Positions 46,111-61,793 of a stretch of DNA of 64,000 bases are shown one piece after another; the stretch's first letter is position 1, and every line of letters starts with the position of its first letter. The position numbers and the translations under genes were made by a program. The stretch lies in assembly GCA_000283635.1 (NCBI GenBank), contig HE613569.1:211501-275500 (forward strand), written 5' to 3'. The stretch comes from Streptococcus macedonicus ACA-DC 198 (GTDB lineage Bacteria > Bacillota > Bacilli > Lactobacillales > Streptococcaceae). A model generated the notes under the pieces. The model searched no databases. It had not been told where the DNA came from and worked only from the letters and a program-made list of their open reading frames with translations.

Positions 46111-46503
46111 ATGGCACAAGCACAATACACAGGTACTGGTCGTCGTAAAAACGCTGTTGCACGCGTACGTTTAGTTCCAGGTACTGGTAAAATTACAGTT
46201 AACAAAAAAGATGTAGAAGAATACATCCCACATGCTGACCTTCGTCTTGTTATTAACCAACCATTTGCAGTTACATCAACTGAAGGTTCATACGACGTTT
46301 TCGTTAACGTTGTAGGGGGTGGTTATGCAGGTCAATCAGGAGCTATCCGTCACGGTATCGCTCGCGCATTGCTTCAAGTAGACCCAGACTTCCGTGATTC
46401 ATTGAAACGCGCTGGTCTTCTTACACGTGATTCACGTATGGTTGAACGTAAAAAACCAGGTCTTAAGAAAGCTCGTAAAGCTTCACAATTCTCAAAACGT
46501 TAA
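46111..46503 (+). CDS. rpsI: 30S ribosomal protein S9
   Basis: The 130-aa protein ends in the conserved basic tail [12 protein letters not shown] that reaches the P-site tRNA. The final 52 bases of the gene are the left attachment repeat of a genomic island; the gene stays intact because the element carries a copy of the same sequence. The coding end is the same in both repeats apart from one silent-type change. Confidence 0.98.
46452..46503 (+). other. attL, left 52-bp direct repeat of the rpsI island
   Basis: The last 52 bases of rpsI (AAAACCAGGTCTTAA... to the stop codon) recur at 60342-60393 with one difference (G at 46467, A at 60357). A truncated tyrosine integrase starts nearby. The 3' end of rpsI is a known insertion site of streptococcal integrative elements. 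Confidence 0.9.
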
Positions 46504-46528
46504 GAAATGCCTACAATACAGCATTTAC

Positions 46529-46564
46529 AACACTTCATGGTTCACACCATGGGGTGTTTTTTTG
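46529..46564 (+). terminator. Island-borne terminator serving rpsI
   Basis: AACACTTCATGG pairs with CCATGGGGTGTT (two G-T pairs) and is followed by TTTTTT. It lies inside the island, so it replaces the native rpsI terminator that now sits beyond attR. Confidence 0.8.
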
Positions 46565-46612
46565 ACGTTTTTTAACAAAATTCACACCACTTTTCACACC
46601 AAATTCACATCA
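46541..46612 (+). repeat. Four TTCACACCA repeats, probable integrase arm sites
   Basis: TTCACACCA occurs at 46541, 46581 and 46593, and TTCACATCA at 46604. The last three are 11-12 bases apart, about one helical turn. They lie between attL and the integrase stop codon, where arm-type binding sites of tyrosine integrases are found. Confidence 0.65.
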
Positions 46613-46921
46613 TTACTTTTTAAGATTACGATAGGCAATCTCTCCAACAGCCATTGGAATAACATTCGAAGCATTGACATAAGTCTTTGTTGTAATCGTG
46701 TCACTATGGGTTAGAGCTTCAGAAATAGCTTCAATAGACGTTCCAGCCTGTTTAGCAAGTGTAGCTCCTATATGCCTTAGTTTATGTGGTGTGGCGTGTG
46801 TAAAATATGGGTGACGATTTTTAAATGTTCTCATCTTATTGTTAAGATAATCTGCATGCAGAGGTTTATTTATGTTTCCTTTGGTATCTATATATGTAAT
46901 CTTGTTTGTCGCAAGAGAGGT
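46613..46921 (-). pseudogene. Tyrosine integrase, C-terminal remnant
   Basis: About 100 codons of a phage/ICE-type integrase remain: KITYIDTKGNINKPLHADYL, then TPHKLRHIGATLAKQAGTS (the HxLRH catalytic box) and ALTHSDTITTKTYV (His and the Tyr nucleophile). The frame is closed at about 46921 by a stop, so the N-terminal ~300 residues are lost. The first ATG inside (46834) would give only 73 aa. The island can thus not excise by its own integrase. Orientation towards attL is standard for such elements. Confidence 0.88.
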
Positions 46922-47281
46922 TTAGTAAAAAACTAGTGGTACTGAGTATTTTGACAGATTTTTATAGAACTAGATCAGATGGTATTTAGATTTATGAAGG
47001 ATTGTGAGACTTTGGGTGAATGTCAAAAAGAAGTTTAGTAAATACAAAATAAGTAAACAGAACCGCAGTAAATTATCTGCGGTTTTCTTGTATTCTGATT
47101 ATCTGTCAGTATCAGACACCATGTATTGTAAATGAAATTTAAGTTCTGTTCATGTTTTGCCTTTTTTTGAGAGCTAACTTACATTATTTCAGGGAACTTC
47201 AAACACTCTCAGAAATAGTTAAAGTTAGGCATAGAAAATGGTATAATAGGTGGAGATATAAACGTTTTCAAGGAGTAGGTT
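46922..47281 (+). other. Non-coding gap before the defence-like operon
   Basis: It contains a terminator hairpin AACCGCAG-N8-CTGCGGTT followed by TTCTTG (47061-47090) and, at 47239-47247, an extended -10 (TGGTATAAT) for the operon. No gene is recognised; a 14-codon tail MKDCETLGECQKEV ending near 47035 may be a relic. Confidence 0.6.
47239..47247 (+). promoter_or_regulatory. Extended -10 promoter of the island operon
   Basis: TGGTATAAT is a TG-extended -10; TTAAAG 17 bases upstream of TATAAT is a poor -35. AAGGAG follows 24 bases later before the TTG start at 47282. Confidence 0.55.
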
Positions 47282-47977
47282 TTGGAAGAGAGCTTAATTA
47301 AATCAAAACAACGTGTTCAAAAACATGGAGAAGTCTTTACACCTGCTTGGATGGTTCGGAAAATGCTGGATACTCCTGGAGTGAAAGAAGCTTGTGAAAG
47401 TGTATATAAGACCTTTTTAGAGCCATCTGCAGGCGATGGAAATTTTTTGCAAGCAATTTTAGAGAGAAAGCTAGAGGCTGTGGTCAGACAGTATGACAAA
47501 CGAAATTGGAAAACAAAGTCTTTATTCGCTCTCTCGTCCATCTATGGCATAGAGTTTTTAGAAGATAATTTGGAAGTGGCACGTTCACGGATGTTTCTTT
47601 GTTATTTAGACTGGTACGAGCAAGCTTTTGGAACTAGACTAAATAGCAAAAATGATATCTATCAATCAGCACACTATCTTATTCATAAAAATATTGTGAG
47701 AGGAAATACCTTGACTCAGCAGCATCCAGTTACAGGGGAGCCTATTAGGTTCAATGAGTGGCAACTGGTCAAAGGTCATCCAAGTTTGGTAAGAAAAATT
47801 CCTTTTGCACTTTCAGAACTTTTGGGTAATGAAGTAGAAGACGATCGGACAGTCGTGGAAGGGCAACTGAGTTTTTTTGATATAGATGATGAATTTATTA
47901 TTGAGAATGAATCTGTTAAAAAAGCAGATACGATAAAAGAGATAACTATTCAAAAAGTGTATTTACTAGGAGATTAG
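47282..47977 (+). CDS. N6-adenine DNA methyltransferase, SAM-binding half
   Basis: A 231-aa protein from a TTG start (AAGGAG six bases upstream). KHGEVFTPAWMVRKML and the SAM motif I FLEPSAGDGNF (about 45-55), then IYGIEFLEDNLEVARSRM (motif II), are those of type I/II N6-adenine methyltransferases, but the protein ends before any NPPY catalytic motif. That motif is found in the next gene (residues 1122-1125), which starts three bases later. I infer that the two products combine to form one methyltransferase active site. The C-terminal ~60 residues (GQLSFFDIDDE...) resemble no family I know. Confidence 0.8.
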   Translation: MEESLIKSKQRVQKHGEVFTPAWMVRKMLDTPGVKEACESVYKTFLEPSAGDGNFLQAILERKLEAVVRQYDKRNWKTKSLFALSSIYGIEFLEDNLEVARSRMFLCYLDWYEQAFGTRLNSKNDIYQSAHYLIHKNIVRGNTLTQQHPVTGEPIRFNEWQLVKGHPSLVRKIPFALSELLGNEVEDDRTVVEGQLSFFDIDDEFIIENESVKKADTIKEITIQKVYLLGD

Positions 47978-47980
47978 GCT

Positions 47981-50900
47981 ATGATTTCAAATTTTGAATT
48001 TTTGGCAATTGATATAGATACAGCCGAGCTTTTTAGAACCATAAATATGGCTGAAGAAAATTATACACATGGGGACTATGAAGGCACGCTGACTAAGGTG
48101 AGAAAAGTTGCTGAGAATACAGCGAGGTTGGTTGCCGATAGAGAATATTTAGATATTAGTGAGCGCGCCACCCTTAATGACGTACTAAGAGAGATAAGAG
48201 ACTTTATTCCTAATAAAACAATCGTCGATCACTTTTATGATATCAAGGGAAAGGGGAATAATTCTGCGCATGTCCTTAATCCAGAAGATGCGACAAAAGA
48301 AAATGCCTTAAAATCACTAAAACAAGTCTTTGACATACTCGCTTGGGTCATGCTGACCTATATTGAACCGGATATTAAAGCCAGTGCAATCGGTCAGTTT
48401 TTAGAACCGAGAGCACAAGAAATGTACACTACGGCTGAGCGGAAGTTTATCTATATTCAAACAGTTAACAATGAAAGTGGACTATTTAATGCCTTCGAAG
48501 GAACTCAAAAAATTGGTGAGGGTAGCGTTTCTTCGGATGATATTGAGACAGATTGGTCGCCAAATAGTGACTTTTTACGTACTGTTGCCCCAAAACGTAT
48601 TAATCAATACATGAAAACATCTGGTCTGCCTTACACGCTTGGTTGGGTAGAGCTTGCTTACAAAAAGGCGACCAAGTCCTGGTTCCATGATTATGATGTG
48701 CATAATATCTTGAAGCGTTCAGGGATTAAACAGGCTGAACAACTGGAAGGAACAGAGTGGTTCAAGACGGATTTAGAGACAGCTAAGGCTGCTATTAAAG
48801 CTGTTAAAGAAGGTAGAAATTATCTAAATATTACTGCCAAAGAATCATTTATTGAAGAACCAGTTATCACCCTTCGTCCAGAACAAGAGACAGCGGTCGA
48901 GCAGACGCAAAAAGTCTTTAAGAAAAAAGACCGAATGCTCTGGAATGCTAAAATGCGTTTTGGTAAAACCTTGACGTCCTTGCAATTGGTCAAGAATGAA
49001 GCCTTTCAAAGAGTGCTCATCATGACTCATCGTCCTGTTGTGGCGGATTCTTGGTTTGATGATTTCAAGAAAATGAAGATGAGCGCCGATGGGTATGATT
49101 ATGGCTCAGTCAATCAAGGAGAAACGCTTGAAAACCTGAAGCGAGGAGAAAAACCTTTTGTGTATTTTGCTTCAATCCAATTGCTTCGGTACAATGGCGG
49201 ACAAACCAATCTGAAAGATTTTGCAGATGTGAATTGGGATTTGATTATCATTGATGAGGCGCACGAGGGAACGCAAACCGAGCTCAGTGATACCGTTATG
49301 AAAGAATTGGTCAGAGAGCATACAAAGATACTTGAACTATCTGGGACACCTTTCAATCTTTTGGATCAATTTGACGAGGAGCAAGTCTATACTTGGGACT
49401 ATGTCATGGAACAACAGGCTAAGAAGAAGTGGGAATTAGAACGACCAAGTGAGCCAAATCCTTATGAAACTTTGCCAAAAGTATCGATGTTCACTTTTGA
49501 AATGAAGCATAAGGAACGTTTTTCTGATGAGAGTAAATCGTTCAACTTTAGGGAATTTTTCCGTGTGGCTGAGGATGGTCAACTTGTTTATAAGAAAGAG
49601 GTTCGCCAATTCTTAGATAATATCACACATCCAGATAGTCGTACGAACTACCCTTTTTCAACGAAGTCTTATCGTGAAGAGTTGCGTCATACGCTTTGGC
49701 TTATGCCAGGTGTTAAGGAAGCTAATGCTTTTGAGGACTTGCTTAAAGAACACCCTATTTTCGGGAAAGAATATAAAATTGTTAATGTTGTTCGAGGAGC
49801 AAGTAGCGATGATGGAATTGCTAATGATGCGGACATAGAGAAAGTTCGTTCTGCTATTGGTAAAGACCCTTCGCAGACAAAAACTATTACCCTGACGGTT
49901 CGTAAACTAACTACAGGTGTAAATATCCCAGAGTGGACAGCAGTCCTGTTTTTGTCAAATACCAATAGTGCCATGAACTACCTACAAGCTGCCTTTCGTG
50001 CTCAGACGCCTTTTTCTCATGAGAAATTGGGAATGAAGACAAATTGTTATGTCTTTGATTTTGCTCCTGATAGAGCCTTGACTGTCATGGCGGAGAGTGC
50101 TCAGATTAACTCAGGTGTAGGGAAGAAAAATACGCAAGCGCAAAAGCAAGCTATGGCTCGTCTGTTAAACTTTATGCCAATTTTAGGGGCTTCTGAGCAT
50201 GGGATGAAGACTTATGATGTCGATAGAATGTTGACACAGCTCAAGAAAGTTTATGCTGAAAAGGCAGTGCGGTCAGGTTTCGAAGATGACAGTCTATATA
50301 ATGACAATCTTTTAACTTTAACCGCTGATGATGCAAGCATGTTTACCAAACTAAATGCTATCGTTGGTAAGACACAGAGTCAAAAAACACCTAAAAAAGT
50401 CATTATTAATGATAATGGTCTAACGGATGAAGAACATGAGCAGGCTGAGCGAGCCAAGAAGAAACCAAAAGCCAAACGGACACCAGAAGAGCTAGAAGCC
50501 ATCGAAAAGCAAAACGAAGCTAAGAAACAACGTAAGAATATGATTTCTATTTTGCGTGGGGTATCTATCCGTATTCCTATGATGATTTATGGCATGGCGG
50601 TTGACTTATCAAAAGATATCACTATTCAAGAATTTATCCAGCAGGTGGATGATGAATCGTGGAAAGAGTTCATGCCAAAAGGTTTCACTAAGGGAATGTT
50701 TAGTGAGATTACCAAGTATTATGATGCAGAAGTCTTTATTGAGGCTGGAAGAATTATTCGCCAGCGAGCAAAATCTTTTGATAGTTTGGACTTTATTGAA
50801 CGGGCAGAAAACATCGCTGAGTTGTTTAGCACCTTTAAAAATCCTGACAAAGAAACTGTGCTGACACCGTGGCGTGTAGTCAATCTTCAAGTGATAAAAT

Positions 50901-52375
50901 CAGTAGGTGGCTTGAATTTCTATGATGATAATTTTGAGTCGGTAACAGATGGAGCGACTTCAAACCTACACTGGGTAGAAAATGAGGTCACATCATCCAT
51001 CTATCAAAAAGAAACAAAGATCTTAGATATTAACTCGAAGACTGGTCTTTATCCTCTTCACAGTGCTATTAGCCTGTATTATCAAAGAGTGGCGGAAAAT
51101 GATGACAATCATTTTGAAGCTGACCAGATCTATCAAGAGATTTTAGCAAATAATATCTATGCTATTGCGAAAACACCAATGGCAAAAACCATCACCGAAC
51201 GCACATTGACCGGTTATCGGAATTACAAAACCAATGTAACCTATATTGAAAACCTAACGGATACCCTAAAAACAGACCTAGACAAAGGGAAAACTCAAGT
51301 GGAGGAGGCATTTAGAAACGTGAAATTTGATGTAGTAATTGGAAATCCTCCGTATCAAAATGAAGGAGTTGGAGAGGTAGCCCGTGACGAGCCAATCTAT
51401 CATAAATTTATGGATTTAGCTTATGAAGTCGCAGATAAGGCAGTTCTGATTACACCAGCTCGTTTTCTCTTTAATGCTGGTCAGACTCCAAAGGTATGGA
51501 ATCAGAAAATGTTAGAAGACGAACATCTTAAAGTGGTTTACTTCGCTCAAAAATCAGAAGAAGTCTTTCCAAATACAGATATCAAGGGTGGGGTAGCCGT
51601 CACTTATCGGGATGTTAATCAAAACTTTGGTGCTATTGAGACCTTCACACCGATTGAATGGCTAAATGACTTGTTGCATTTAGTACGCAATAAAGTTAAG
51701 AAATCGTTTAATGAATATCTTTATGGTAAGAGTAGTTATAAATTTAGCAGTAGTCTTTACAATCGTTATCCAGAATTGAAGGGAAGAGTTTCTTTAGCAG
51801 AAGAAAAATCGATTGGATCAAATATTTTCGAGAAACTACCAGAGATATTCTCGGATAAAAAACAATCAGATAATCAAATTGGGATATACGGACGTATCAA
51901 TAATGAGCGTGTTACAAATTGGCTTGATAGCGATTTAATTGAAGAACATCCTAATCTGAATAAATACAAAGTGTTTTTACCTGCTTCCAACGGAAGTGGG
52001 GCGATAGGCGAAGTTCTATCGACCCCACTCGTGGGTACCCCACTCGTGGGTACCCCACTCGTGGGTACCCCACTCGTGGGTCATACACAAACCTTTATTT
52101 CTTTTGGTGCATTTGATACTGAAGTGGAAGCTGAAAACTGTTTGAAGTACATCAAAACAGATATAGCTCGTGCGATGCTAGGAACACTCAAGGTAACTCA
52201 ACACAATCAATCGAAAGAGGTTTGGAGCAATGTTCCTTGGTTTGATTTTAATGATTATTCTCAAATAGATTGGTCGAAGTCGGTTGAAGAGATTGAAAGA
52301 CAGCTTTATGATTATTTTAATGTTCCAGACAATATTATTGCTGAACTGAAAGCGAATGTTAGAAGAATGGACTAG
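47981..52375 (+). CDS. Fusion of GIY-YIG-like nuclease, DEAH helicase and adenine methyltransferase half
   Basis: A 1464-aa protein. Residues 10-130 look like DUF4145 (AEENYTHGDYEGTLTKVRK...GNNSAH). Residues 155-265 fit the T5orf172 branch of GIY-YIG nucleases: FIYIQ (156-160), KIG (177-179), Arg206, His241 in DVHNIL, EWF (259-261). A superfamily 2 helicase follows: Walker A-like AKMRFGKT (323-330), DEAH (425-428), LSGTPFNL, and TTGVNIPEWT with QAAFRAQ. NPPY lies at 1122-1125, then a specificity-type C-terminus with four TPLVG repeats (1348-1367). It looks like a restriction-modification enzyme that cuts, translocates and methylates with the upstream SAM-binding protein. DNA target and true nuclease activity are unproven. 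Confidence 0.8.
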   Translation: MISNFEFLAIDIDTAELFRTINMAEENYTHGDYEGTLTKVRKVAENTARLVADREYLDISERATLNDVLREIRDFIPNKTIVDHFYDIKGKGNNSAHVLNPEDATKENALKSLKQVFDILAWVMLTYIEPDIKASAIGQFLEPRAQEMYTTAERKFIYIQTVNNESGLFNAFEGTQKIGEGSVSSDDIETDWSPNSDFLRTVAPKRINQYMKTSGLPYTLGWVELAYKKATKSWFHDYDVHNILKRSGIKQAEQLEGTEWFKTDLETAKAAIKAVKEGRNYLNITAKESFIEEPVITLRPEQETAVEQTQKVFKKKDRMLWNAKMRFGKTLTSLQLVKNEAFQRVLIMTHRPVVADSWFDDFKKMKMSADGYDYGSVNQGETLENLKRGEKPFVYFASIQLLRYNGGQTNLKDFADVNWDLIIIDEAHEGTQTELSDTVMKELVREHTKILELSGTPFNLLDQFDEEQVYTWDYVMEQQAKKKWELERPSEPNPYETLPKVSMFTFEMKHKERFSDESKSFNFREFFRVAEDGQLVYKKEVRQFLDNITHPDSRTNYPFSTKSYREELRHTLWLMPGVKEANAFEDLLKEHPIFGKEYKIVNVVRGASSDDGIANDADIEKVRSAIGKDPSQTKTITLTVRKLTTGVNIPEWTAVLFLSNTNSAMNYLQAAFRAQTPFSHEKLGMKTNCYVFDFAPDRALTVMAESAQINSGVGKKNTQAQKQAMARLLNFMPILGASEHGMKTYDVDRMLTQLKKVYAEKAVRSGFEDDSLYNDNLLTLTADDASMFTKLNAIVGKTQSQKTPKKVIINDNGLTDEEHEQAERAKKKPKAKRTPEELEAIEKQNEAKKQRKNMISILRGVSIRIPMMIYGMAVDLSKDITIQEFIQQVDDESWKEFMPKGFTKGMFSEITKYYDAEVFIEAGRIIRQRAKSFDSLDFIERAENIAELFSTFKNPDKETVLTPWRVVNLQVIKSVGGLNFYDDNFESVTDGATSNLHWVENEVTSSIYQKETKILDINSKTGLYPLHSAISLYYQRVAENDDNHFEADQIYQEILANNIYAIAKTPMAKTITERTLTGYRNYKTNVTYIENLTDTLKTDLDKGKTQVEEAFRNVKFDVVIGNPPYQNEGVGEVARDEPIYHKFMDLAYEVADKAVLITPARFLFNAGQTPKVWNQKMLEDEHLKVVYFAQKSEEVFPNTDIKGGVAVTYRDVNQNFGAIETFTPIEWLNDLLHLVRNKVKKSFNEYLYGKSSYKFSSSLYNRYPELKGRVSLAEEKSIGSNIFEKLPEIFSDKKQSDNQIGIYGRINNERVTNWLDSDLIEEHPNLNKYKVFLPASNGSGAIGEVLSTPLVGTPLVGTPLVGTPLVGHTQTFISFGAFDTEVEAENCLKYIKTDIARAMLGTLKVTQHNQSKEVWSNVPWFDFNDYSQIDWSKSVEEIERQLYDYFNVPDNIIAELKANVRRMD
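52022..52081 (+). repeat. Four perfect 15-bp tandem repeats in the specificity region
   Basis: The unit ACCCCACTCGTGGGT occurs four times without error and codes TPLVG in frame each time. Each unit contains the inverted repeat CCCAC-TC-GTGGG, so it can form hairpins and slip. Copy-number change would alter the protein by five residues per unit without frameshift. Confidence 0.95.
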
Positions 52376-52380
52376 AAATA

Positions 52381-52512
52381 GAGGAAACGTCGAATTCGGA
52401 CATTGATTGGTCACAATCAATCGCTGAGTTAGACGGGTAACTCTATCGAAAATAAGGACTTTCAGATGATGAAATTGCCTTTATTGAAAGTAAAGTGAAG
52501 GAGATGGAGTAA
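52381..52512 (+). pseudogene. Relic of a second copy of the methyltransferase C-terminus
   Basis: After the stop of the large gene, one frame reads SNSDIDWSQSIAELD, stop, LYRK, stop, GLSDDEIAFIESKVKEME, stop (52510-52512). This parallels the live tail NDYSQIDWSKSVEEIERQLYDYFNVPDNIIAELKANVRRMD. It is best explained by exchange of the C-terminal specificity part, leaving the old end behind. Confidence 0.75.
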
Positions 52513-52537
52513 GGAAAATTTGAAAACGGAGGTGAAG

Positions 52538-55500
52538 ATGACAGAATTTAAATTTAATAAGTTAACACCATTAAACGATGTTGATATCGATGCGTCGCAT
52601 GAAGCAGCGATGAATTATGCACTAGAAGATAAAGGTATTAAAAATGTAGCGATATCTGGAAATTATGGCTCAGGTAAAAGTAGTTTTATAGAAACTTATA
52701 AAAGTAAAAATGGAAATTTCAAACCATTACATATTTCATTGGCACACTTTTCCTCTCTGAATCACCTTGAAAATGGGAGCAATGCTCAATTGGAAATAGT
52801 CCAAGGGCGGATTGAAAATAGCGATTCGCTGGAGCAAATTAATATCATTGAGGGGAAAATAATTAATCAATTGTTACATCAGATTGATGCAAAGTATATC
52901 CCAATGACTATTTTTAAGTCAAAAAAGAATCCCGTATCATTTGAAGTTATTAAATTTTCTTCCGTATTATTACTATTTTTATTACCTATTTTATTTCTAT
53001 GGAATTATACGCATTTAGCCATCTTAGTTAGAGAAGGCTTCCCAAATTTTCCTCACATTGGAAGTATCATTCGTTTGCTTGCTTACCTAATTTTAACGTG
53101 CAATATGATTTATTCAGTATATAAATTATCTGAATTACAGTTAAAAAGACGTTTAATCAAAAATCTTTCATTTCGTGGTGCGAATATATCTGGAGATGTT
53201 GAAGTATTTCAAAGTGAAGAAGACTCCTATTTTGATAAATATTTAGATGATGTTTTATATCTCTTTGATAACTGTCAGAGTGATATTGTCATCTTTGAAG
53301 ATATTGATCGATTTGAAACAAACCTAATCTTTGAGAAACTAAGAGAAATAAATACGCTTGTTAATAATAAGAGAAAAGATGGGAAGAAACTTTTATTCAT
53401 CTATCTTATCAAAGATGATATGTTTATTTCGCGAGATAGAACTAAATTTTTTGATTTCATCATTCCAATTATTCCAGTAATTACCTCATCTAATTCAGGT
53501 GAAAAGCTAGGAGAAATACTAACAAATTTAGGTGAAGTACACAGTGTTAGTAAAACATTGTTAAAACAAGTGGCGATTTACATTGATGATATGAGACTGG
53601 TGTATAATATTTGTAATGAGTTTGTTTTATATAAGAATAACTTATTTAGTCAGAAAGAAAATGATAATAATAAGCTGAATCTTTCATCAGATAAAATTTT
53701 TGCAATCATTGTTTATAAAAATATTTTTCCTAAAGATTTTTCATTACTCCAGAAAGACTCAGGATTTGTTCATCAACTTTTTAGTAAGATTAATGATTTG
53801 AGACAGGGGAATCTAGATAAAAAATCAACAGAAATTGAGAAAATAGAAGAAAAGATAATTTCTTCTGAACAAGAATTTTCTAGAAATAAACTTGAACTTT
53901 ATTCAACGTATCTGAAGGTTCCTGAGGGAAGGGTAGCTATTCGAGTAAATGGTAAAACCGAGAGTCAATTTCCTAATAGGTTAGATTTTATACGTGAAAT
54001 TCTATCGGAAGATGCGAAAATTACTTCCATCGTACCAGATTATTATAACCGAGAGGATAGCAGAGAAGAAACTATTAATAGTATTTTTGCTTTGGATGAT
54101 ATTAGTTTTCAGGAACGGATGAGTGCTATAGAAAATAGAGACCATCTTAAAGAGTTGAATTCTAAATTAGAAAAATTACGCGAAGAGTATGAAAGTGTTA
54201 AATCAGAAAAGTTGTCTGTTCTCATTAATCGTAATTTCTTCGAGACTATAATGGAAGAGTATCCTTACTTGAAGACAGAGAAAAACTCTCTAATCATGTA
54301 TTTATTGAGAAATGGCTATATAGATGAGAGTTTTCCAGACTATATTACTTATTTTTATCCTAATAGTTTGAAGAAGCAAGATAAGGAATTTTTAAATGCA
54401 GTTCAAGGTGAGATCAAACTTGACTGGGATTATTCTTTGATAGAAGTTTCAGAAGTCAATGAAAGACTTGATGACTCCGATTTTACGAGAATTTATGCCT
54501 TAAACTTTGATTTGTTTGAATATCTTTTACAGAAAAAAGATATGACAAGATTGAAAAGTTATTTATCGGAGTCTAATGTAAAATTTGTTAACAAGTTTTT
54601 ACAACAAAACTCACGACCTCTTGCAGCAAAAATTTCTGTTCTTTTATACTTAATTGATTTAAATCAGGGAACCTTAAAGTTACTTTTGACTTCTGATGGT
54701 ATCCTTGAAAAGGAAAAACTGCAGACGATTATTTTATTGTTGTCATTTATTGATTTTTCTGAAGTCAGCTGGCAAGAAGATCTACAAGAGGTAATGTATT
54801 CTTTTGTAAATAGTAACTGGTCAGCTATCCAAGAAACCGTTGATAATTTTAACGAGCTCATCAATAATACTCAGATTCAAGATAATTTGAAGTTTATGGA
54901 AGTTAAAATTAAAAATTTTAGTTTTGAAGATAGCCATAAAGTGATGAGTGATTTTGTTTATGAAAATAATTTATATGATATTAACGTTCAAAATATCCTA
55001 AGTTTGCTCTACTATATGGATGGTGATGTATCAGCTGAATCAGTTAAAAATAAACCGTTTTCGATACTTGAGCAATTTGACAATCTTAATAATTATATTG
55101 GTAAGAATTTAGAAACTTATATGTCACAAATATTACCTTTCTTGAATGAAGTCATTCGTGATGAGTTACAAGTGGTTTATAGGATTGTAAATAACACAGC
55201 AGTAGCCGAAAACCTCAGAGTTGAATATTTAAAGAAAGTACACGACCACTCTCTTGAAATATCAGAATTAGCAACAATGCCTATTTTAGATGCTGCTATT
55301 GAGTTTAATAAGGTAGGATATAACACAGAAAATATTCTAAATTACTTTTGTGAGTATGATACATGGAACGAAAGATTGATTGAATTTGTGAATAATGGTG
55401 AGCATTTAGAATTTTCCCAGTTAGTGTTCAAGGAATTTTCAGACAATTTGCAAGAAGAATTTTTTGAAGAAACCGTTAAATGTAACCAATTAGCTAATGA

Positions 55501-56296
55501 TAAATATAAAGAGATTCTTTCAAAATTGGGATGGTGTTTTACAGAATTTAAGAAGGATGATATTCCTGATGATAAAGTAGCTATTTTAATTGATGAGAAA
55601 ATTATCTCAGAAGTTTTTTCTCTAAACACATTGGATTTTATAAGAGAAAATTACTCAAATCATGTTATTTCATATCTCAAAAAATATTTAGAGGGTTATC
55701 TGGCAGAAAAGACAGGCAATTTTGTGGTTTACCATGAACATGAAATGTTAAGTCTTCTTGAACAAGGGCTAACTGATGAAGATAAATTTAAAATTATTGA
55801 TAGATTTTCTAACAATATATCCCTATCTGACAAGAATTATTCTACAGCAGTTATTGACTATATCTTGCAAAATAAATTTGATGAATCTGATTTAGAATAT
55901 ATTCTGTATGGGTACACTTCTTTTGAATTCAGTACTAGAAAGTTAGTAGAAAAAATCTTTGCGGATTATTTCGATGACATTCTAGAGGAAGGATACTCAG
56001 TCAATAAGGAATTATTGCAATCAGTCATCGAAAATACTGATATAGATTTAAGTGAACGTCGATTAATATTGGCAAAATACCTTAATGAGTTTACATATGA
56101 TGAAGTTTTGAGTTTATTTAGAGTTTTAGATCTTACCGAAATTATTTTGGCGTTAACTGATAGAAAGAATCCTAAGATTAAAAATACAAATTATAATAAA
56201 TCAATCCTCCAGTATCTAAAAATAAATAAAAAAATTGCCTCCTACCAATTAGAAGGTGATGGATATAGAATATATAGCCGTAAAAAAATAAAGTAG
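52538..56296 (+). CDS. YobI/KAP-like membrane-anchored P-loop NTPase
   Basis: A 1252-aa protein, started at the ATG at 52538 behind GGAGG rather than the TTG at 52520. Walker A is GNYGSGKSS (41-49); two membrane helices (about 135-160 and 178-200) interrupt the NTPase domain, as in KAP-type ATPases; Walker B-like DIVIFEDIDRFE lies near 248-259. The remaining ~850 residues are helical, with a possible coiled coil near 440-560 and no known domain that I can name. This architecture fits the YobI-type NTPases, which are suspected of anti-phage roles. It lies in the operon with the restriction-like genes and is AT-rich compared with the housekeeping genes. Confidence 0.75.
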   Translation: MTEFKFNKLTPLNDVDIDASHEAAMNYALEDKGIKNVAISGNYGSGKSSFIETYKSKNGNFKPLHISLAHFSSLNHLENGSNAQLEIVQGRIENSDSLEQINIIEGKIINQLLHQIDAKYIPMTIFKSKKNPVSFEVIKFSSVLLLFLLPILFLWNYTHLAILVREGFPNFPHIGSIIRLLAYLILTCNMIYSVYKLSELQLKRRLIKNLSFRGANISGDVEVFQSEEDSYFDKYLDDVLYLFDNCQSDIVIFEDIDRFETNLIFEKLREINTLVNNKRKDGKKLLFIYLIKDDMFISRDRTKFFDFIIPIIPVITSSNSGEKLGEILTNLGEVHSVSKTLLKQVAIYIDDMRLVYNICNEFVLYKNNLFSQKENDNNKLNLSSDKIFAIIVYKNIFPKDFSLLQKDSGFVHQLFSKINDLRQGNLDKKSTEIEKIEEKIISSEQEFSRNKLELYSTYLKVPEGRVAIRVNGKTESQFPNRLDFIREILSEDAKITSIVPDYYNREDSREETINSIFALDDISFQERMSAIENRDHLKELNSKLEKLREEYESVKSEKLSVLINRNFFETIMEEYPYLKTEKNSLIMYLLRNGYIDESFPDYITYFYPNSLKKQDKEFLNAVQGEIKLDWDYSLIEVSEVNERLDDSDFTRIYALNFDLFEYLLQKKDMTRLKSYLSESNVKFVNKFLQQNSRPLAAKISVLLYLIDLNQGTLKLLLTSDGILEKEKLQTIILLLSFIDFSEVSWQEDLQEVMYSFVNSNWSAIQETVDNFNELINNTQIQDNLKFMEVKIKNFSFEDSHKVMSDFVYENNLYDINVQNILSLLYYMDGDVSAESVKNKPFSILEQFDNLNNYIGKNLETYMSQILPFLNEVIRDELQVVYRIVNNTAVAENLRVEYLKKVHDHSLEISELATMPILDAAIEFNKVGYNTENILNYFCEYDTWNERLIEFVNNGEHLEFSQLVFKEFSDNLQEEFFEETVKCNQLANDKYKEILSKLGWCFTEFKKDDIPDDKVAILIDEKIISEVFSLNTLDFIRENYSNHVISYLKKYLEGYLAEKTGNFVVYHEHEMLSLLEQGLTDEDKFKIIDRFSNNISLSDKNYSTAVIDYILQNKFDESDLEYILYGYTSFEFSTRKLVEKIFADYFDDILEEGYSVNKELLQSVIENTDIDLSERRLILAKYLNEFTYDEVLSLFRVLDLTEIILALTDRKNPKIKNTNYNKSILQYLKINKKIASYQLEGDGYRIYSRKKIK

Positions 56297-56311
56297 AAGA
56301 GGAGTTACAAG

Positions 56312-57763
56312 TTGGAAAATAAGGAATATTTATCTAATGATTTATCCCTCTACCAATTCTCTCCAGAAAGCCAATATCTAGATAGAAAATCAGCACGCAA
56401 GAAGCCTCAGGAATTGCTTAAGCACTTGATTGCTTTTGCAAATGCGGACGGCGGTCAGTTGGTGGTTGGTATTGAAGATGAGAAGCAGGACAATATTATC
56501 ACTGGTTTCAAGGATGGTAGATCTTATCCCATAGACGATTTCAAAAAGATTGACCGTGAGATGCGGGAGACTCCTCTGGATTTGTCCTTTGAGGAAATCC
56601 CTGTGGTTAATCATAAGGGGGAAGATGACCTGATTTTGGTTATCTCAGTTGAATTGTCATCTAACCGAGTGATTGCTGCGCCTAATGATGAGGTTTATCT
56701 GCGTCAGGGCGATGAATCGGTTAAATTAAGCTATGAGCAACGTACTCAGCTCAGCTATGATAAGGGACAACGTTTCTTTGAAGATGAAGTAGTACCTGAT
56801 GCAACCCTGGAAGACATTGATGATAACTTAGTGCAAGATTTCAAAAATCGGTTTGATATTTCAGAACGTTCGACAGAGGAAATTCTTAAAGTACGGCGTT
56901 TTCTCGTGAATGGTAAACTGACCAAGGCAGCAATTCTACTTTTTGGTAAATGTCCGTCAGCGTTTTTCCCACAAGCTCGTGTTCGCTTTCAACGCTTTGA
57001 TGGCACGGATATGGGGACAGGCAGTAGCTTTAATGTCATCAAAGAAGTGACTTTTGATGATGCTTTGCCAGTACTGATTATAAAAGTTCGAGATTTTATC
57101 CGTACTCAGTTGCGGGAATTTCAGTACTTAGACGGTAATGGTCAATTTCAAATATTGCCTGAATATCCTGAGTTTGCTTGGTTTGAAGGTGTTGTCAATG
57201 CAGTAACTCACCGTGATTACTCTGTCTATGGAGATCACATTCGTGTACTCATGTTCGATGATCGCTTAGAGATTCACAGCCCAGGGAAATTACCCAATAT
57301 CGTCACCGTTGACAATATCAAGCATGAACGTTTTTCAAGAAATCCTCGGATTGCGAGAACCCTGACTGAATTTGGTTGGGTTCGTGAAATGAACGAGGGT
57401 GTTAAGCGTATCTATTCTGAAATGGAATCAGCTTTTCTTCATGAACCTAAATATTCTGAGCCAGGTAATAAGGTAGTTCTAATCCTTGAAAATAACATTG
57501 TTAGTCGACATCTACGAACACGAGACAGTTTGGAAAAACAGTTTTCTGATTTTGGAACTCTAAATGCAGATGAACAAGCTATCGTTCACTACATGTATAA
57601 TTCTGGTGATAAAATGACAACGGCAAAAGCGATTGAAATTACTGGTAGAAGCCGTAAATTTATTGTAAAAACTATGAAAAACTTACAAGAATTGGGCATC
57701 CTTAATTGGTACGGCGCAAACAAAAATGATAGAAATCAGTACTATACTTTGGTTGACAGATAG
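56312..57763 (+). CDS. AlbA_2/Schlafen-type ATP-binding protein
   Basis: A 483-aa protein from a TTG start (GAGGAG upstream). The N-terminal AlbA_2 domain (about 15-130: DRKSARKKPQELLKHLIAFANADGGQLVVGIED) may bind DNA or RNA; a middle segment shows EGVVNAVTHRDYS and LEIHSPGKLP, typical of the RecG-like HATPase_c_4 domain; a winged helix ends the protein (about 415-480). Members often accompany restriction systems and may act as regulators or effectors. Here it is 15 bases downstream of the NTPase gene, the last of the operon. Confidence 0.82.
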   Translation: MENKEYLSNDLSLYQFSPESQYLDRKSARKKPQELLKHLIAFANADGGQLVVGIEDEKQDNIITGFKDGRSYPIDDFKKIDREMRETPLDLSFEEIPVVNHKGEDDLILVISVELSSNRVIAAPNDEVYLRQGDESVKLSYEQRTQLSYDKGQRFFEDEVVPDATLEDIDDNLVQDFKNRFDISERSTEEILKVRRFLVNGKLTKAAILLFGKCPSAFFPQARVRFQRFDGTDMGTGSSFNVIKEVTFDDALPVLIIKVRDFIRTQLREFQYLDGNGQFQILPEYPEFAWFEGVVNAVTHRDYSVYGDHIRVLMFDDRLEIHSPGKLPNIVTVDNIKHERFSRNPRIARTLTEFGWVREMNEGVKRIYSEMESAFLHEPKYSEPGNKVVLILENNIVSRHLRTRDSLEKQFSDFGTLNADEQAIVHYMYNSGDKMTTAKAIEITGRSRKFIVKTMKNLQELGILNWYGANKNDRNQYYTLVDR

Positions 57764-57780
57764 TTTATCCTTTATGAAGT

Positions 57781-57830
57781 AGGATACAGTAGGATACAGT
57801 AGGATACAGTAGGATACAGTAGGATACAGT
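57781..57830 (+). repeat. Five perfect copies of a 10-bp direct repeat
   Basis: AGGATACAGT is repeated five times without interruption, starting 17 bases after the AlbA_2 gene. It is non-coding. The 10-base period places every copy on the same DNA face, as in protein-binding iterons. No other copy is noticed in the window. Confidence 0.95.
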
Positions 57831-57954
57831 GTTGGATATCGATTAAAGTAATATGATAATTAAAGAATAAAAATATTCAATTTAAGTTTATATATGACAG
57901 AGTTTTAATTTTAAATAGTTTTTATTTGAATTTATATATGTGTAGGAATGTTTA

Positions 57955-58818
57955 ATGGTCGTTGAAGGTTACTATTTTGTTGGTTGCAGTATAGGTCGTA
58001 GACTATTACATAGAATAGGTAAAGAGGAGTATGAACTTTTAAAGAAATTCAATCTTGATTTTAATAAATTTTCAAATGTTGTAGATTGTTATAAAAATTT
58101 TATAAAATCTAAGAATATGTTAGAAGAGTACATTAATAAAATTGAGACAGATATAGAAGAGATGGAAAAAATATATTCTGAGTTGAAGTTTTTAGTGTTA
58201 ACAAATATCCTTTTAGGAAGACTATTTGTTGATAACTGTAAAGCATTTTCTACGCAATTAAAATTAGTAGAATTGAAAGAACTGATCAGAATATATGAGC
58301 AGTACGATGAGATTCGAATTCTGAAAATATTGCGTGATTTTGGACAACATTTTTCTATTCCAGTCGATAATTTAGTGCAACAAGTAGATCTCCTTAAAGA
58401 GAGGGCGACTGTTAAAATATATATTTCGAAATCTGAGCTTGAAAGAAATAAGGGTTCTAATAAACAAAATGACAAATTTATAAGTGAAATCTCAGAAAAA
58501 GAAATAGAACTTATTGAGTCTTTCAAAAAATGGTCATTTATCCTTGATAAGGTATTTTTGGATTTAAAAAGCATATACTACAATCAAATATCTTCTGAGA
58601 TAAAGAGAATAGTTGGAAAGTATTTTAGTCCAGTTATATTGGGAAATAATATTTATCGACCGAATTACATATCAATAGAGTCTTTAGACCAATCAAATAT
58701 TAGTTTACCGGATAATCCAGATAAAAGATTCAATACATATAGAAATATTGCATTTACTCGGTTTAGTAGGATAGCTATGGATGAATTATTTAGTTTAGAG
58801 TTTGATAATGTTCTGTGA
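57955..58818 (+). CDS. Unknown 287-aa protein with HEPN-like RX4H motif
   Basis: Not recognised. It is predicted nearly all-helical and rich in Lys, Glu and Ile, with AT-rich codons unlike the housekeeping genes. Residues 127-132 (RDFGQH) fit the RX4-6H motif of HEPN ribonucleases, including the polar residue after Arg, and stand in a helix (IRILKILRDFGQHFSIPVDNL). HEPN proteins are common toxins or effectors in defence islands. AGGA lies seven bases before the ATG. The N-terminus (VEGYYFVGCSIGRRL) gives no clue. Confidence 0.5.
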   Translation: MVVEGYYFVGCSIGRRLLHRIGKEEYELLKKFNLDFNKFSNVVDCYKNFIKSKNMLEEYINKIETDIEEMEKIYSELKFLVLTNILLGRLFVDNCKAFSTQLKLVELKELIRIYEQYDEIRILKILRDFGQHFSIPVDNLVQQVDLLKERATVKIYISKSELERNKGSNKQNDKFISEISEKEIELIESFKKWSFILDKVFLDLKSIYYNQISSEIKRIVGKYFSPVILGNNIYRPNYISIESLDQSNISLPDNPDKRFNTYRNIAFTRFSRIAMDELFSLEFDNVL

Positions 58819-58977
58819 TAATTTATCCATATAATCAAAAGTATATAGAAACTATATCTTTGATAAAATTGAAAATGTGATATACTACTTCTTAATATAG
58901 TATGACCTGATATAATTAAGTTGTAACACCTGTGTATAGTTTGGTAAAATACATACATAATCCAAGGAGATGTTACA

Positions 58978-59265
58978 ATGACAAACAATCGTTACGAGCC
59001 TGAGCTCAAACAAAAGGTTCTTCGCCTCTATCTGGAAGAGGGACGAACCAAGAAAAGCCTGACCGAAGAATATAATCTTGGACAAGGCACGCTGACATAC
59101 TGGTTACAGCAATACCGCAAAGAATGTGATAACAGCCCAACAAAACGGGAAGAATCTGATTCATACGAAGTTGCAAAAAAGCTACGCAAAGAAATTGAAG
59201 AACTCAAAAAAGAAAATGATTTTTTAAAAAAAGCGGCAGCATTCTTTGCGAAGGAAATCGATTAG
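58978..59265 (+). CDS. IS3-family transposase OrfA
   Basis: A 95-aa protein with an N-terminal helix-turn-helix (YEPELKQKVLRLYLEEGRTKKSLTEEYNLGQGTLTYWL) and a leucine-zipper-like coiled coil (KKLRKEIEELKKENDFLKKAAAFF). It binds the IS ends. Near its 3' end the slippery run A7 (59226-59232) allows a -1 shift into OrfB. Confidence 0.92.
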   Translation: MTNNRYEPELKQKVLRLYLEEGRTKKSLTEEYNLGQGTLTYWLQQYRKECDNSPTKREESDSYEVAKKLRKEIEELKKENDFLKKAAAFFAKEID

Positions 59266-60122
59266 CTCAGTACCAGTTCATCCAGAAATATCAACAGACA
59301 TTTGGGGTCAGATGGCTTCTTAGAAGAATGAACATCTGTCCAAATGCTTACTATAATTATCTTAAAAACAAAAAACATGCTTATCGTCAGGAAAAGGCAG
59401 AGATTCAACGTAAAATTGTTGAAATCTACCACCGAGAAAATGGAGTTCCTGGATACCGAATGATGAACGATTATCTTAAGGGTATCGGAAGCATTCGTTC
59501 AGATCTGACAATACATCATTTTATGAATGAATTGGGCTTACGTTCCATCACACGTCGAAAGAAACCAAACTATGTAAAAGGAACTGCCAATAAAATCTTT
59601 CCAAACCTTCTGAATAGGGAATTTGATGTAAAAGAACCCAATAAAATATGGTGTACTGATTTTACATATTTAACTCGTCCAGATGGAACAATGCGTTACA
59701 ATTGCACGATTATAGACCTTTGCGGTCGTGAAGTGGTTGCATCATTAAACAGCAGTCATATCGATATTGAATTGGCAAAGGAAACCTTGAAAATCGCACT
59801 AGAACGTCGAAAACCAGCAAAAGGAATTATCCTGCATTCTGATCAAGGGCGTCAATTTACCGCAAAAGAATTCAATAAATTTTGTGATAAAAACTATGTC
59901 CAACAAAGTATGAGCAAAGCAGGCTGTCCATATGACAATGCCGTTATGGAAAGATTCTACAATACGCTCAAACACGAATTCTATTATCTCTACATGTTTG
60001 ATTCAAATGACATTCTTGACCAAAAGCTCTATGAATTCGTTTATGGGAAATATAATCACGTAAGACCACATCGTGCAAACGGTGGACTTACACCTTATGC
60101 TGCACGATGTCGTGCAGCGTAA
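59226..60122 (+). CDS. IS3-family transposase OrfB (reached by -1 frameshift)
   Basis: The frame is open from the A7 slip at 59226-59232 (then SGSILCEGNRLAQYQF...) to 60122. It holds the rve integrase fold with the DDE triad: CTDFTYL (first Asp), LHSDQGRQFT (second Asp) and NAVMERFYNTLKHE (Glu), ending RPHRANGGLTPYAAR. An internal ATG at 59328 could start a 264-aa form. All catalytic residues are present, so the element may be active. Confidence 0.92.
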   Translation, partial: KKSGSILCEGNRLAQYQFIQKYQQTFGVRWLLRRMNICPNAYYNYLKNKKHAYRQEKAEIQRKIVEIYHRENGVPGYRMMNDYLKGIGSIRSDLTIHHFMNELGLRSITRRKKPNYVKGTANKIFPNLLNREFDVKEPNKIWCTDFTYLTRPDGTMRYNCTIIDLCGREVVASLNSSHIDIELAKETLKIALERRKPAKGIILHSDQGRQFTAKEFNKFCDKNYVQQSMSKAGCPYDNAVMERFYNTLKHEFYYLYMFDSNDILDQKLYEFVYGKYNHVRPHRANGGLTPYAARCRAA

Positions 60123-60341
60123 GAAATTTTATACACTAGTGTTACAAAAATGCTTGACTAGGTCAGTATGTGCTGGATGATTATTTATTCCTCAACTACA
60201 TAAGCTCCGAAAACAGATTTTTAGTAATCTAATGGTAATCCATTGTTTGTAAGATTGGGTTATAATTGCTTATTTATAATGAAAATGGACTTTGAAAGCT
60301 TTATTCAATAGCCTTTTACAGATAGTTGACTTATATCACCC

Positions 60342-60393
60342 AAAACCAGGTCTTAAAAAAGCTCGTAAAGCTTCACAATTCTCAAAACGTTAA
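60342..60393 (+). other. attR, right 52-bp direct repeat
   Basis: Near-identical (51/52) copy of the rpsI end including the stop codon TAA. It marks the right boundary of the island; no start of rpsI lies before it. Confidence 0.9.
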
Positions 60394-60423
60394 TTCGTTG
60401 CTGGGAAGAACAATACAAACGAA

Positions 60424-60454
60424 AATACTTTGCAACTTGCAAGGTATTTTTTTG
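60424..60454 (+). terminator. Original rpsI terminator, now beyond attR
   Basis: AATACTTTGCAA (60424-60435) pairs with TTGCAAGGTATT (60437-60448) and runs into TTTTT. Its place, 30 bases after the displaced rpsI end, suggests it ended rpsI before insertion. From here to 60700 I see no gene. Confidence 0.75.
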
Positions 60455-60700
60455 TATGAGAACTGGCTGTACACAATTAGGCTAGCTCTAACGACTTTAG
60501 TCGCATAGAGATATGCTATGCACAGTTGCCTCAAGAAAACAAGTAGAGCGATGTTTGATTGGATGGCAACCACTACATAATGGAAATATCTAGAAATGTC
60601 TATTATAACTAAATAAAAAAGTTTCAGGAAAATTCATACTTTTCAGAAAGTTAGCTATTAATATTTATCATTTATCAATGATAAAAACAGCATGTTTTAA

Positions 60701-60719
60701 GGGACTGACCCCAAAAAGT
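60701..60719 (+). mobile_element. Possible solitary IS3-family end
   Basis: GGGACTGACCCCAAAAAGT resembles the terminal repeats of IS3-family elements of streptococci. No transposase gene or second end is seen nearby. It lies at the edge of the copper cluster and may mark how that cluster arrived. Confidence 0.4.
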
Positions 60720-60738
60720 GAGAATTAAATAAAAAGAC

Positions 60739-60796
60739 TTGCCATAATTCGTTTACAATGATAAACTTATTTTAAACATATTCGTTTACATATGTA
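60739..60796 (+). promoter_or_regulatory. tcr promoter with cop boxes
   Basis: TTGCCA (60739-60744), 17 bp, TAAACT (60762-60767). A perfect cop box TACATATGTA (consensus TACANNTGTA) lies at 60787-60796; a degenerate one, TACAATGATA, lies between -35 and -10 at 60754-60763. Copper-free TcrY should bind here and block transcription. Confidence 0.8.
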
Positions 60797-60815
60797 GACA
60801 ACTAGGGGGAGGAGG

Positions 60816-61262
60816 CTGAGCACAATAGAATTTAATACTTATATCACAGATGCAGAATGGGAAGTCATGAGTGTAGTTTGGGCAAATGATCGAGTAACTA
60901 GTAAAAAAGTCATTTCCGTATTGCAAGAAAAAATGGACTGGACACAATCCACTATCAAAACGATCTTAGGTCGATTAGTTGGAAAAGGCGTACTAAATAC
61001 AGAGCAAGAAGGTAGAAAGTTTATTTACACTGCCAATATTGTAGAGAAAGAAGCCGTAAGGGATTATGCAGAAGATATTTTTAACCGTATTTGCAAAAAG
61101 AAAGTCGGAAATGTAATAGGAAGCATCATTGAAGATCATGTCTTAAGCTTCGATGATATAGATCGACTAGAGAAAATATTAGAGATAAAAAAATCTTTCG
61201 CAGTAGAAGAAGTGGATTGTCAGTGTACAGAAGGGCAATGCGATTGCCATGAAGGCTGTTAA
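60816..61262 (+). CDS. tcrY: Copper-responsive repressor TcrY/CopY
   Basis: A 148-aa CopY/BlaI winged-helix repressor ([26 protein letters not shown]; then [28 protein letters not shown]). The C-terminal copper/zinc site [10 protein letters not shown] fits CxCx4CxC. Alignment of the N-terminus suggests a start at the rare CTG at 60816 (behind GGGGGA); the first ATG, 60867, would cut into the DNA-binding helix. The stop lies inside the tcrA remnant, whose frame overlaps, which shows that a deletion joined tcrY's end to the middle of tcrA. Confidence 0.85.
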
Positions 61263-61793
61263 AGAACTTAGAAGACGCGGTGTTGAAGTAATCATGATTA
61301 CTGGAGATAACAAACGAACAGCCAAAGCGATTGCTAAGCAAGTGGGTATAGACAGTGTATTAAGTGAAGTATTACCTGAAGATAAAGCAGAGGAAGTCAA
61401 AAAACTACAAGAGGCAGGCAAGGAGGTAGCGATGGTTGGAGACGGCATTAATGATGCACCCGCATTAGCTCAAGCAGATGTCGGAATTGCAGTTGGATCA
61501 GGTACAGACGTGGCGATTGAATCGGCTGATATTGTCCTTATGCGTAATGATTTAACCGCTGTATTGACTGCGATTGATTTAAGTCATGCAGCGCTACGAA
61601 ACATTAAACAAAACTTGTTCTGGGCTTTTGCTTACAACCTTGTAGGTATTCCAGTTGCGATGGGTCTTTTGTATATTTTTGGCGGACCATTGATGAGTCC
61701 AATGTTGGCGGGGCATTCGCCATGAGTTTCAGCTCCGTATCGGTCTTGCTCAATGCTTTACGGTTAAGACGATTCAAACCAGCAGTTGTTTAG
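61234..61793 (+). pseudogene. tcrA: Copper ATPase TcrA/CopA, C-terminal remnant
   Basis: Only the end of a P1B-type ATPase remains: [27 protein letters not shown] (end of the P domain), [19 protein letters not shown] (the hinge motif) and the last membrane helices. The metal-binding, phosphorylation (DKTGT) and CPC segments are absent, about 570 residues. A further frameshift near 61710 moves the conserved end [20 protein letters not shown] (61722-61790) to another frame. It cannot transport copper. Confidence 0.9.

Follow-up and report, generated by a model that had tools for sequence, protein, structure and literature searches.

The 3' end of rpsI is a documented integration site of streptococcal integrative and mobilizable elements (IMEs) and integrative and conjugative elements (ICEs), at which long direct repeats and tandem accretion have been described (PMC5357655). 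Decayed elements that keep their att sites and have lost their mobility genes are termed cis-mobilizable elements (CIMEs; PMC7563491). In a survey of Streptococcus suis, systems such as Tmn and Abi are listed apart from rpsI IMEs carrying an orphan methylase (PMC12479173). Among anti-phage proteins, RosmerTA is a tested toxin-antitoxin family (PMC10440598), and proteins joining a Schlafen RNase, a minimal histidine kinase (HK) and a winged helix-turn-helix (wHTH) have been reported from at least 1017 taxa in tight linkage with BREX loci (PMC12839542). We analysed a four-gene operon (g1 to g4) of Streptococcus macedonicus ACA-DC 198, located in a stretch of 64,000 nucleotides that is hereafter called the window (contig HE613569.1; C1:211501-275500 of genome G000, 2.14 Mb). 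An earlier note, made from the letters of this DNA, had taken the four genes for a candidate defence operon, and this proposal is now well supported. The explanation that we favour, with a probability of about 0.68, is a decayed rpsI island carrying one modular, layered anti-phage operon. Numbers with G and L are our handles for genomes and loci.

Related operons differ in the content of a slot between g2 and g4, which is occupied by g3 in the window (Table 1). The slot borders are sharp. Two S. suis loci (L013 and L019) are 92% identical in DNA up to and including the g2 stop codon, whose last base is at 11485 and 14371, respectively, and their homology sets in again where g4 starts (14153 and 16378), one insert being AbiG and the other RosmerTA; a further S. 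suis locus (L003) has an AbiD-like gene at the same slot. Searches with g2, g4 and g3 covered 295 Streptococcaceae genomes each, a sample of a larger group. The order g1-g2-insert-g4 occurs at 10 loci of this set with five kinds of insert, namely Tmn (four loci), RosmerTA (RmrT-RmrA; G149, G166 and G139), AbiG (AbiGi-AbiGii; G101), an AbiD-like gene (G143) and a three-gene set of unknown kind (G146); insert profiles were run on one representative per kind, which for G146 means one protein. Of these loci, G143 and G146 have a g4 truncated at its 5' end, and G152 and G166 have it in fragments. A near full-length g2 is present at 31 loci in 30 genomes, including one copy in two frames (G271) and one with a stop (G046), and g1 lies directly ahead of it at all 31 (in G012 merely as a 29% match). 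The first or second gene behind g2 is a recognised defence gene at 15 loci (a short unscanned gene intervenes in G101 and G143), and nine kinds were found there: Tmn, RosmerTA, AbiG, AbiD-like, NsnA/GmrSD_N, NACHT, AbiJ/Abi_C, a DUF4011 helicase-nuclease and SocA/Panacea. Six of the other 16 loci were scanned and gave no clear match, i.e., G146, G108, G044 and G168, plus G172 and G217 via the L008 copy of a gene of 473 amino acids (aa), which itself matches HEC-07 at 3e-6. The slot contents are probably exchanged by recombination in the conserved flanks, and a modular, mobile defence island is highly probable.

The 473-aa gene belongs to a second g1-g2 frame, in which it replaces g4 as the end gene, in S. 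parasanguinis, S. infantis, S. australis, S. sinensis and S. danieliae. In this oral-streptococcal frame (L004, L005, L008, L010, L012 and L016), the end protein has weak HEC-07 and HicA-like matches, and further genes lie between g2 and the 473-aa gene in L008, L010, L012 and L016 (NACHT, a 346 + 506-aa or 351 + 506-aa pair, Abi_C). The pair occurs in two species (L010, 14441-16998; L016, 9456-12012); its L010 version has no Pfam or PADLOC match, and the pair is a candidate new defence pair. In L077, a three-gene insert (195 + 87 + 149 aa) separates g2 from a truncated g4, and its 195-aa protein is likewise without a match in Pfam or PADLOC.

Table 1. Features of the rpsI island in the window, with their positions, strand and the evidence for each.
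Feature	Position	Strand	Evidence
attL, left island border; last 36 bases of rpsI	46468-46503	+	exact 36-bp repeat with 60358-60393
Remnant of tyrosine integrase C-terminus, beside attL	46667-46900	-	36% identity to residues 289-365 of the 384-aa integrase of L138, E 1.6e-6
Putative extended -10 promoter, TGGTATAAT	47239-47247	+	form TGnTATAAT kept in 13/13 aligned g1 upstream regions, window included
g1, 231 aa, predicted N-terminal half of adenine methyltransferase	47282-47977	+	51% identity over 201 aa to residues 17-213 of the L038 enzyme
g2, 1464 aa: HsdR-like N-terminus, candidate GIY-YIG nuclease, ResIII helicase, methyltransferase C-terminal half	47981-52375	+	profile searches
Predicted methyltransferase C-terminal half in g2 (~residues 1106-1464), NPPY and target recognition	51296-52372	+	49% identity to L038 256-599
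Putative relic of another g2 C-terminus, behind the g2 stop	52390-52512	+	one frame with two internal stops; resembles g2 C-termini of relatives
Exchangeable slot (Tmn in the window)	52512-56341	+	DNA homology to L007, L013, L019, L076 and L081, which have other inserts, breaks off at 52511-52519 and returns at 56341-56347
g3, 1252 aa, Tmn-family transmembrane KAP/YobI NTPase	52538-56296 from the ATG common to relatives; 52520-56296 from the first TTG	+	PF20693, PADLOC Tmn
g4, 483 aa: Schlafen (SLFN_AlbA_2), GHKL-type ATPase (HATPase_c_4), C-terminal winged helix	56312-57763	+	SLFN_AlbA_2 profile match; RNase fold of the Schlafen domain
g5 (287 aa) and transposase pair (IS3-type by eye), between g4 and the attR arm	57955-60122	+	list of open reading frames
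attR, right island border	60358-60393	+	exact 36-bp repeat of attL

The four genes of the window occur together in four of the 295 genomes, the window genome included, and always in the same order. Matches to g3 at E 1e-20 exist in 19 genomes, with at least 72% identity only in G000, G271, G253 and G152, where g3 sits between g2 and g4; all others are at most 45% identical. A fixed four-gene system was rejected: g3 is found at none of the 44 related loci of a first set and in three other genomes of the 295, and the slot contents vary. The combination thus appears to be one state of an exchangeable cassette and no fixed four-part machine. The slot occupant of the window had been called a YobI-like NTPase in the earlier note, which is borne out by PF20693 (YobI-ATPase; E 3.1e-108, profile positions 3-363 of 363) and by the PADLOC Tmn profile (E 1.6e-60). 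Its Walker A motif lies at residues 41-48 and its Walker B motif at about 250-257 (ATG numbering), with two hydrophobic segments in between (~131-165 and 173-195, from hydropathy only, the peaks beginning at ~131-147 and 173-177). As in Tmn, a YobI/KAP P-loop NTPase domain thereby contains two predicted transmembrane segments. The AlbA_2 protein of the earlier note was recovered as well: g4 matches SLFN_AlbA_2 at E 4e-16, and an N-terminal Schlafen RNase fold is followed by a GHKL/HK-type ATPase and a C-terminal wHTH. Among g4 relatives, position 19 is always E, position 24 either D or E, and D56 nearly invariant, which we take to be the Schlafen active-site positions. Distant relatives of g4 occur in 12 phage records, 11 of them from Gordonia and Mycobacterium phages (33-36% identity over ~95%) and one an unannotated 4.6-kb record; the proteins are annotated as hypothetical, helicase or HTH protein.

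As an end gene, g4 is shared beyond operons with g1 and g2. It matches at E 1e-40 in 31 genomes and with at least 75% identity at 30 loci in 29 genomes, a set from which one extra G152 fragment and the copies of G048 and G142, at 54-56%, are left out. A defence gene stands ahead of it at 24 of 29 scorable loci (G148 ends at the contig end), assigned by profiles on representatives and for the rest by length and likeness of the sequence start. HsdR (six loci), RmrA (five) and Tmn (four, in G253 with a transposase between) are joined by two type I loci with inverted hsdS pieces (G069 and G227, by eye, with opposite-strand genes between) and, once each, by AbiGii, an AbiD-like protein, a ResIII-type Res, a CBASS cyclase, HerA of a SIR2-HerA pair, a reverse transcriptase and a PD-(D/E)XK protein. 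No recognised defence gene precedes g4 in G146 (unknown insert), in G285 (directly behind rpsI) and in the fragments G257, G233 and G123. In this way, g4 closes loci of type I, type III and single-chain restriction enzymes, of CBASS, of SIR2-HerA and of a reverse transcriptase. The single-chain enzyme (PADLOC REase_MTase_I), which differs from g2 and which we read as ISP-like, precedes g4 in L139 and, by eye, in L143. Thoeris genes lie inside the type I locus of L129 according to profiles, and likewise in L130, L131 and L135 by eye. In S. dysgalactiae L178 (NZ_CP044103.1), g4 (92%) lies behind an hsdS/PsrA invertase locus; the idea that this 'plasmid' record is an excised circle was rejected, the record being linear and running into phosphotransferase system genes. 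Directly downstream of g4, a tandem repeat with a 10-base step occurs in L076 (11317-11490) and L077 (9920-10178), and similar repetitive open reading frames (YCILLYSTVF) follow g4 in L003, L013, L019 and L081.

Several observations weigh against a layered operon on an rpsI island. Recognised defence genes are missing behind g2 at 16 of the 31 g1-g2 loci, 10 of which lie outside the profile scans. All three other Tmn copies are in loci with a gene disrupted or separated (g2 spans two frames in G271, G253 has a transposase gene separating g3 from g4, and the g4 of G152 is fragmented), so that the co-occurrence named as a check in the earlier note holds for gene order, in four of 295 genomes, and is blemished in each of the three others. 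At its 30 loci, g4 is uninterrupted over the match in 18, has stops in four (the frame of G104 is nevertheless open) and is in pieces in eight. Since it is so often damaged, g4 seems dispensable, and its frequent decay argues against obligate coupling; of the 'coupled or layered' system suggested earlier, layering fits the data and coupling is hypothetical. The nuclease-helicase proposed for g2 also stands in part, with the ResIII helicase upheld and the nuclease less sure, as its T5orf172 match reaches 15.9 bits against a cut-off of 20. Finally, no close relative of the L138-type integrase was found in the window genome, in which the best match is 31%.

The strongest alternative is that g4 is merely the last gene of rpsI-site elements, where defence genes pile up at a site that tolerates cargo, and that g1-g2, Tmn and g4 are independent of each other; we rate this somewhat below an even chance. 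Many unrelated defence genes indeed precede g4, in L124 it stands directly behind rpsI, it decays where its neighbours persist, and an att-like 20-mer (up to 3 mismatches; counted without a shuffled control) occurs at most 2.7 kb downstream of it in 16 of 34 loci. Mere position would not explain that g4 starts 1-27 bases behind the previous same-strand gene in 14 of 34 loci, nor the tight link of its architecture to BREX in at least 1017 taxa (PMC12839542), nor the selection acting on it. Where its frame is open, g4 is under purifying selection: 14 comparisons gave omega 0.031-0.067, each of them made with the window copy and hence non-independent, at a synonymous divergence (dS) near saturation; a filter on length and motifs had passed 15 copies and left out open ones such as L129. 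A recent spread of g4, suggested by high protein identity, was rejected given dS values of 1.0-3.2 (76-88% DNA identity), which point to an old divergence.

A second, rather unlikely alternative sees g4 chiefly as the regulator of the operon, its winged helix sitting on the promoter and its GHKL and Schlafen parts sensing infection and releasing expression, like BrxR or CapK/CapS, which control immune operons. Such a role would suit the wHTH, yet g4 is the last gene of the operon and the regulators of such operons lie, to our knowledge, upstream. Moreover, three insert loci persist with a 5'-truncated g4 (L003, L077 and L078), and the Schlafen domain retains its RNase fold. Whether g4 is a backup effector rather than mainly a regulator is nonetheless an even call.

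Together, g1 and g2 appear to carry the split METHYLTRANSFERASE, an adenine methyltransferase in two genuinely separate halves. The reference for the split is an intact enzyme, the 599-aa methyltransferase of L038. g1 carries motif X (GEVFTP, residue 16) as well as motif I (EPSAGDG, residue 47), which binds S-adenosylmethionine (SAM), and it lacks NPPY; in g2, the match to the L038 methyltransferase starts at about residue 1115 and NPPY stands at residue 1122. An AlphaFold model of the intact enzyme (43 sequences; mean predicted local distance difference test score (pLDDT) 79.6; predicted TM-score 0.57) is confident in both halves, and the split point and NPPY (263-266) fall in its poorly modelled stretch (pLDDT below 50 at 201-245 and 247-273). 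Its best solved Foldseek matches are the adenine methyltransferases CamA, BrxX, MmeI and M.BseCI, at 8-11% identity. By sequence, no solved structure matching g2, g3 or the intact methyltransferase was found, a negative that has no value for exclusion. By profile, g2 matches a ResIII helicase and Eco57I; a comparison of its middle part with the helicase end of L038 gave no clear likeness (E 0.049), its HsdR-like N-terminus reaches 76.6 bits with PRK11448, far under the cut-off of 729, and in PADLOC at E 0.1 it matches just PDLC03626 (IIG) and PDLC03375 (MTase II). A profile built from 33 g1 proteins was run on the open reading frames of 23 more distant loci. An NPPY-less half gene was found in 18, always adjoining a g2-type, helicase or NPPY gene (downstream of its partner in L022 and L031), and in L039 and L041 the g1-type half lies inside an NPPY protein; the profile gave no match in L029, L030 and L034, where the contig leaves at most 147 bases ahead of the match. 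A frameshift or sequencing error was rejected because separate NPPY-less halves recur in distant loci. The split methyltransferase that the earlier note had seen is thereby confirmed as a conserved trait, and a two-subunit enzyme is very likely. We read three arrangements: an intact methyltransferase with a helicase (L036, L038 and L039), two half genes with a helicase (L035), and an N-terminal half with a fusion of helicase and C-terminal half (the window). It is improbable that the methyltransferase works in g2 alone, with a motif-I-like DINSKTG (~residue 1016) pairing with NPPY and g1 as an accessory or specificity factor. Such a stretch does precede NPPY, with a likeness seen by eye, but g1 and g2 resemble the two halves of one intact enzyme at 51% and 49% identity, and the half gene adjoins a partner in the 18 distant loci or forms part of an NPPY protein in the two mentioned.

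The putative relic behind the g2 stop has 83-91% DNA identity in L002, L007, L013, L019 and L081, and is best read as a scar from an exchange of the target-recognition end. Within the target-recognition part of g2, residues 1348-1367 form four tandem TPLVG repeats, whose copy number could change specificity without a change of frame. The list of open reading frames bears out four large genes separated by gaps of 3, 162 (to the g3 ATG) and 15 bases. A promoter or terminator of its own in the 162-base gap was rejected, the gap being the relic and holding no terminator-like site. The main promoter before g1 is supported by the extended -10 form kept in all 13 loci, and the homology block to the window starts at this promoter (47232-47235) in L002, L006, L019, L079, L081 and L087. 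Consensus scans added little: 54 promoter-like sites against 54.0 in shuffles were uninformative, and 10 terminator-like sites against 6.3 (sd 2.9) were not clearly above them. Four weak terminator-like sites fall within g1 and g2, and none was found by the consensus scan on the plus strand of 52237-60093. From the single promoter ahead of four genes that the earlier note described, the conserved element before g1 stands, and one transcript across all four genes is what we infer from the layout.

The unit is the island (46468-60393, 13.9 kb) and not only the four genes, because it lies between two direct repeats, exact 36-bp copies of the 3' end of rpsI. Upstream lie rplM and rpsI (by eye in the list of open reading frames). 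A third exact copy of the repeat occurs beyond the window, at G000:C1:278212, and a control pattern gave 0 matches. Intact 384-aa integrases stand in L138, L139 and L143 where the window has its remnant, which was also seen on direct reading of the minus strand; in L139, the integrase is followed by a gene resembling a phage replisome organiser and by NikA/MobC-like genes. No mobilization gene was seen by eye among the open reading frames of the window, and the island thus keeps att sites and has lost recombination and mobilization genes. Given the att repeats, the integrase remnant, the documented rpsI site and the definition of a CIME, the operon is predicted to be cargo of a decayed rpsI island of the CIME type. 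That this decay extends to the operon, which would no longer work, is improbable: the integrase remnant, the relic g2 C-terminus, the transposase pair and disrupted genes in relatives speak for it, yet all four frames are open in the window, the motifs looked for are present and g4 is under purifying selection. A second rpsI-site segment of ~6.4 kb follows in tandem (60393-64000, to G000:C1:278247); it ends at the third att copy, and by eye its first genes are a BlaI-like regulator and a piece of a P-type ATPase. DNA homology to relatives stops at ~57830 and restarts near 60185, i.e., around the g5/transposase stretch. g5 (57955-58818) has 0 Pfam families over the cut-off and just two weak PHROG matches (E 0.002), with 0 matches in the first set of 44 related loci and 0 in the relatives of the 295-genome search. 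It contains an R-x4-H stretch (LRDFGQH), which resembles the HEPN RNase motif.

Compared with the DNA of the window, the g1-g2 block is 93% identical in L079 and 96% in L087, at an adjoining rplM-rpsI block of 88%, which supports a recent horizontal spread of g1-g2 in some relatives. In L019 (89%) and L081 (88%), the block is not above rplM-rpsI (89%). DegV of L079, L087, L019 and L081 has 55-60% protein identity (in L079 over 184 residues), which by itself is poor evidence, given that rplM and rpsI are 95-97% identical.

As we picture it, the first layer of defence would be a restriction-modification (R-M) enzyme formed by g1, the SAM-binding half, and g2, the NPPY and target-recognition half. 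Since each supplies one half of the methyltransferase, methylation would need a g1:g2 complex, and the helicase and candidate nuclease of g2 would cut unmethylated DNA. The slot occupant, here Tmn as a membrane NTPase, would form the second layer and stop infection at the cost of the cell, and g4 would be the third, most likely as a backup effector of the tRNase type and/or a regulator of the operon. All these activities, including RNA cleavage by g4, are predictions from domain content; layered defence is likely, and the layers may act together. PrrC in type I operons is a precedent for an inner suicidal layer, and synergy between Gabija and Tmn has reportedly been seen. Backup effectors of BREX are a further precedent (PMC12839542). 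A more daring and quite doubtful extension is a plug-in frame of restriction core, interchangeable second system and shared Schlafen guard, in which a phage that disables either system releases g4 to cut tRNA. If true, one guard would serve many different immune systems. The loci also form a natural series of very similar operons whose second defence systems differ and whose borders are known almost to the base. Because one frame occurs with several inserts, with or without g4, coupling of co-located defence systems can be tested against mere neighbourhood. Besides, the locus adds a probable two-subunit adenine methyltransferase with its second half fused to a restriction helicase, and the unrecognised slot inserts are defence candidates.

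Each ingredient of the locus is of a known kind. The statement in the earlier note that no standard system matches was half right: no BREX or DISARM set is present, while g3 falls in the known Tmn family and the architecture of g4 has been described (PMC12839542). The accessible open-licence literature that was searched yielded neither a constant frame in which a sharply bordered exchange slot is combined with a common Schlafen end gene, nor a split methyltransferase joined to a restriction helicase. With Tmn, g3 shares the YobI-ATPase domain, the two hydrophobic segments between Walker A and B and a similar length; the E. coli system has no named partner enzyme and its mechanism is called unexplored in the accessible part of PMC11846954, whereas the Tmn of the window stands in a slot behind a restriction enzyme. 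With the BREX-linked Schlafen-HK-wHTH proteins, g4 shares the three-part architecture and a place beside a DNA-modification defence core. It is instead linked to various kinds of R-M and to second systems that can be exchanged, in many cases on rpsI-site elements, and no BREX core gene was found among g1-g5, bar a weak PglX row for g1 (E 0.016), or among the scanned g4 neighbours; DISARM gave no row for g1-g5 (PADLOC, E 0.1). Type IIG (PADLOC PDLC03626) and type ISP (LlaGI) enzymes resemble g2 in carrying helicase, candidate nuclease and NPPY/target recognition in one chain, but theirs includes the complete methyltransferase, whereas the SAM-binding half of the window is the separate g1. The pairs of an Eco57I-type methyltransferase and a GIY-YIG-like helicase (L036, L038, L039 and L124) have homologous domains, with an intact methyltransferase and a separate helicase where the window has the C-terminal half joined to the helicase chain. 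The IMEs, CIMEs and islands at rpsI (PMC5357655, PMC7563491, PMC12479173) share the site, long direct repeats, tandem accretion and R-M cargo; a fixed frame with an exchangeable defence slot is undescribed in the accessible parts of these papers. A second system inside an R-M operon is likewise known from PrrC in type I R-M operons, and one g4 locus (L137) holds PrrC between type I genes. PrrC guards the type I enzyme, whereas the insert of window-type operons varies between unrelated systems.

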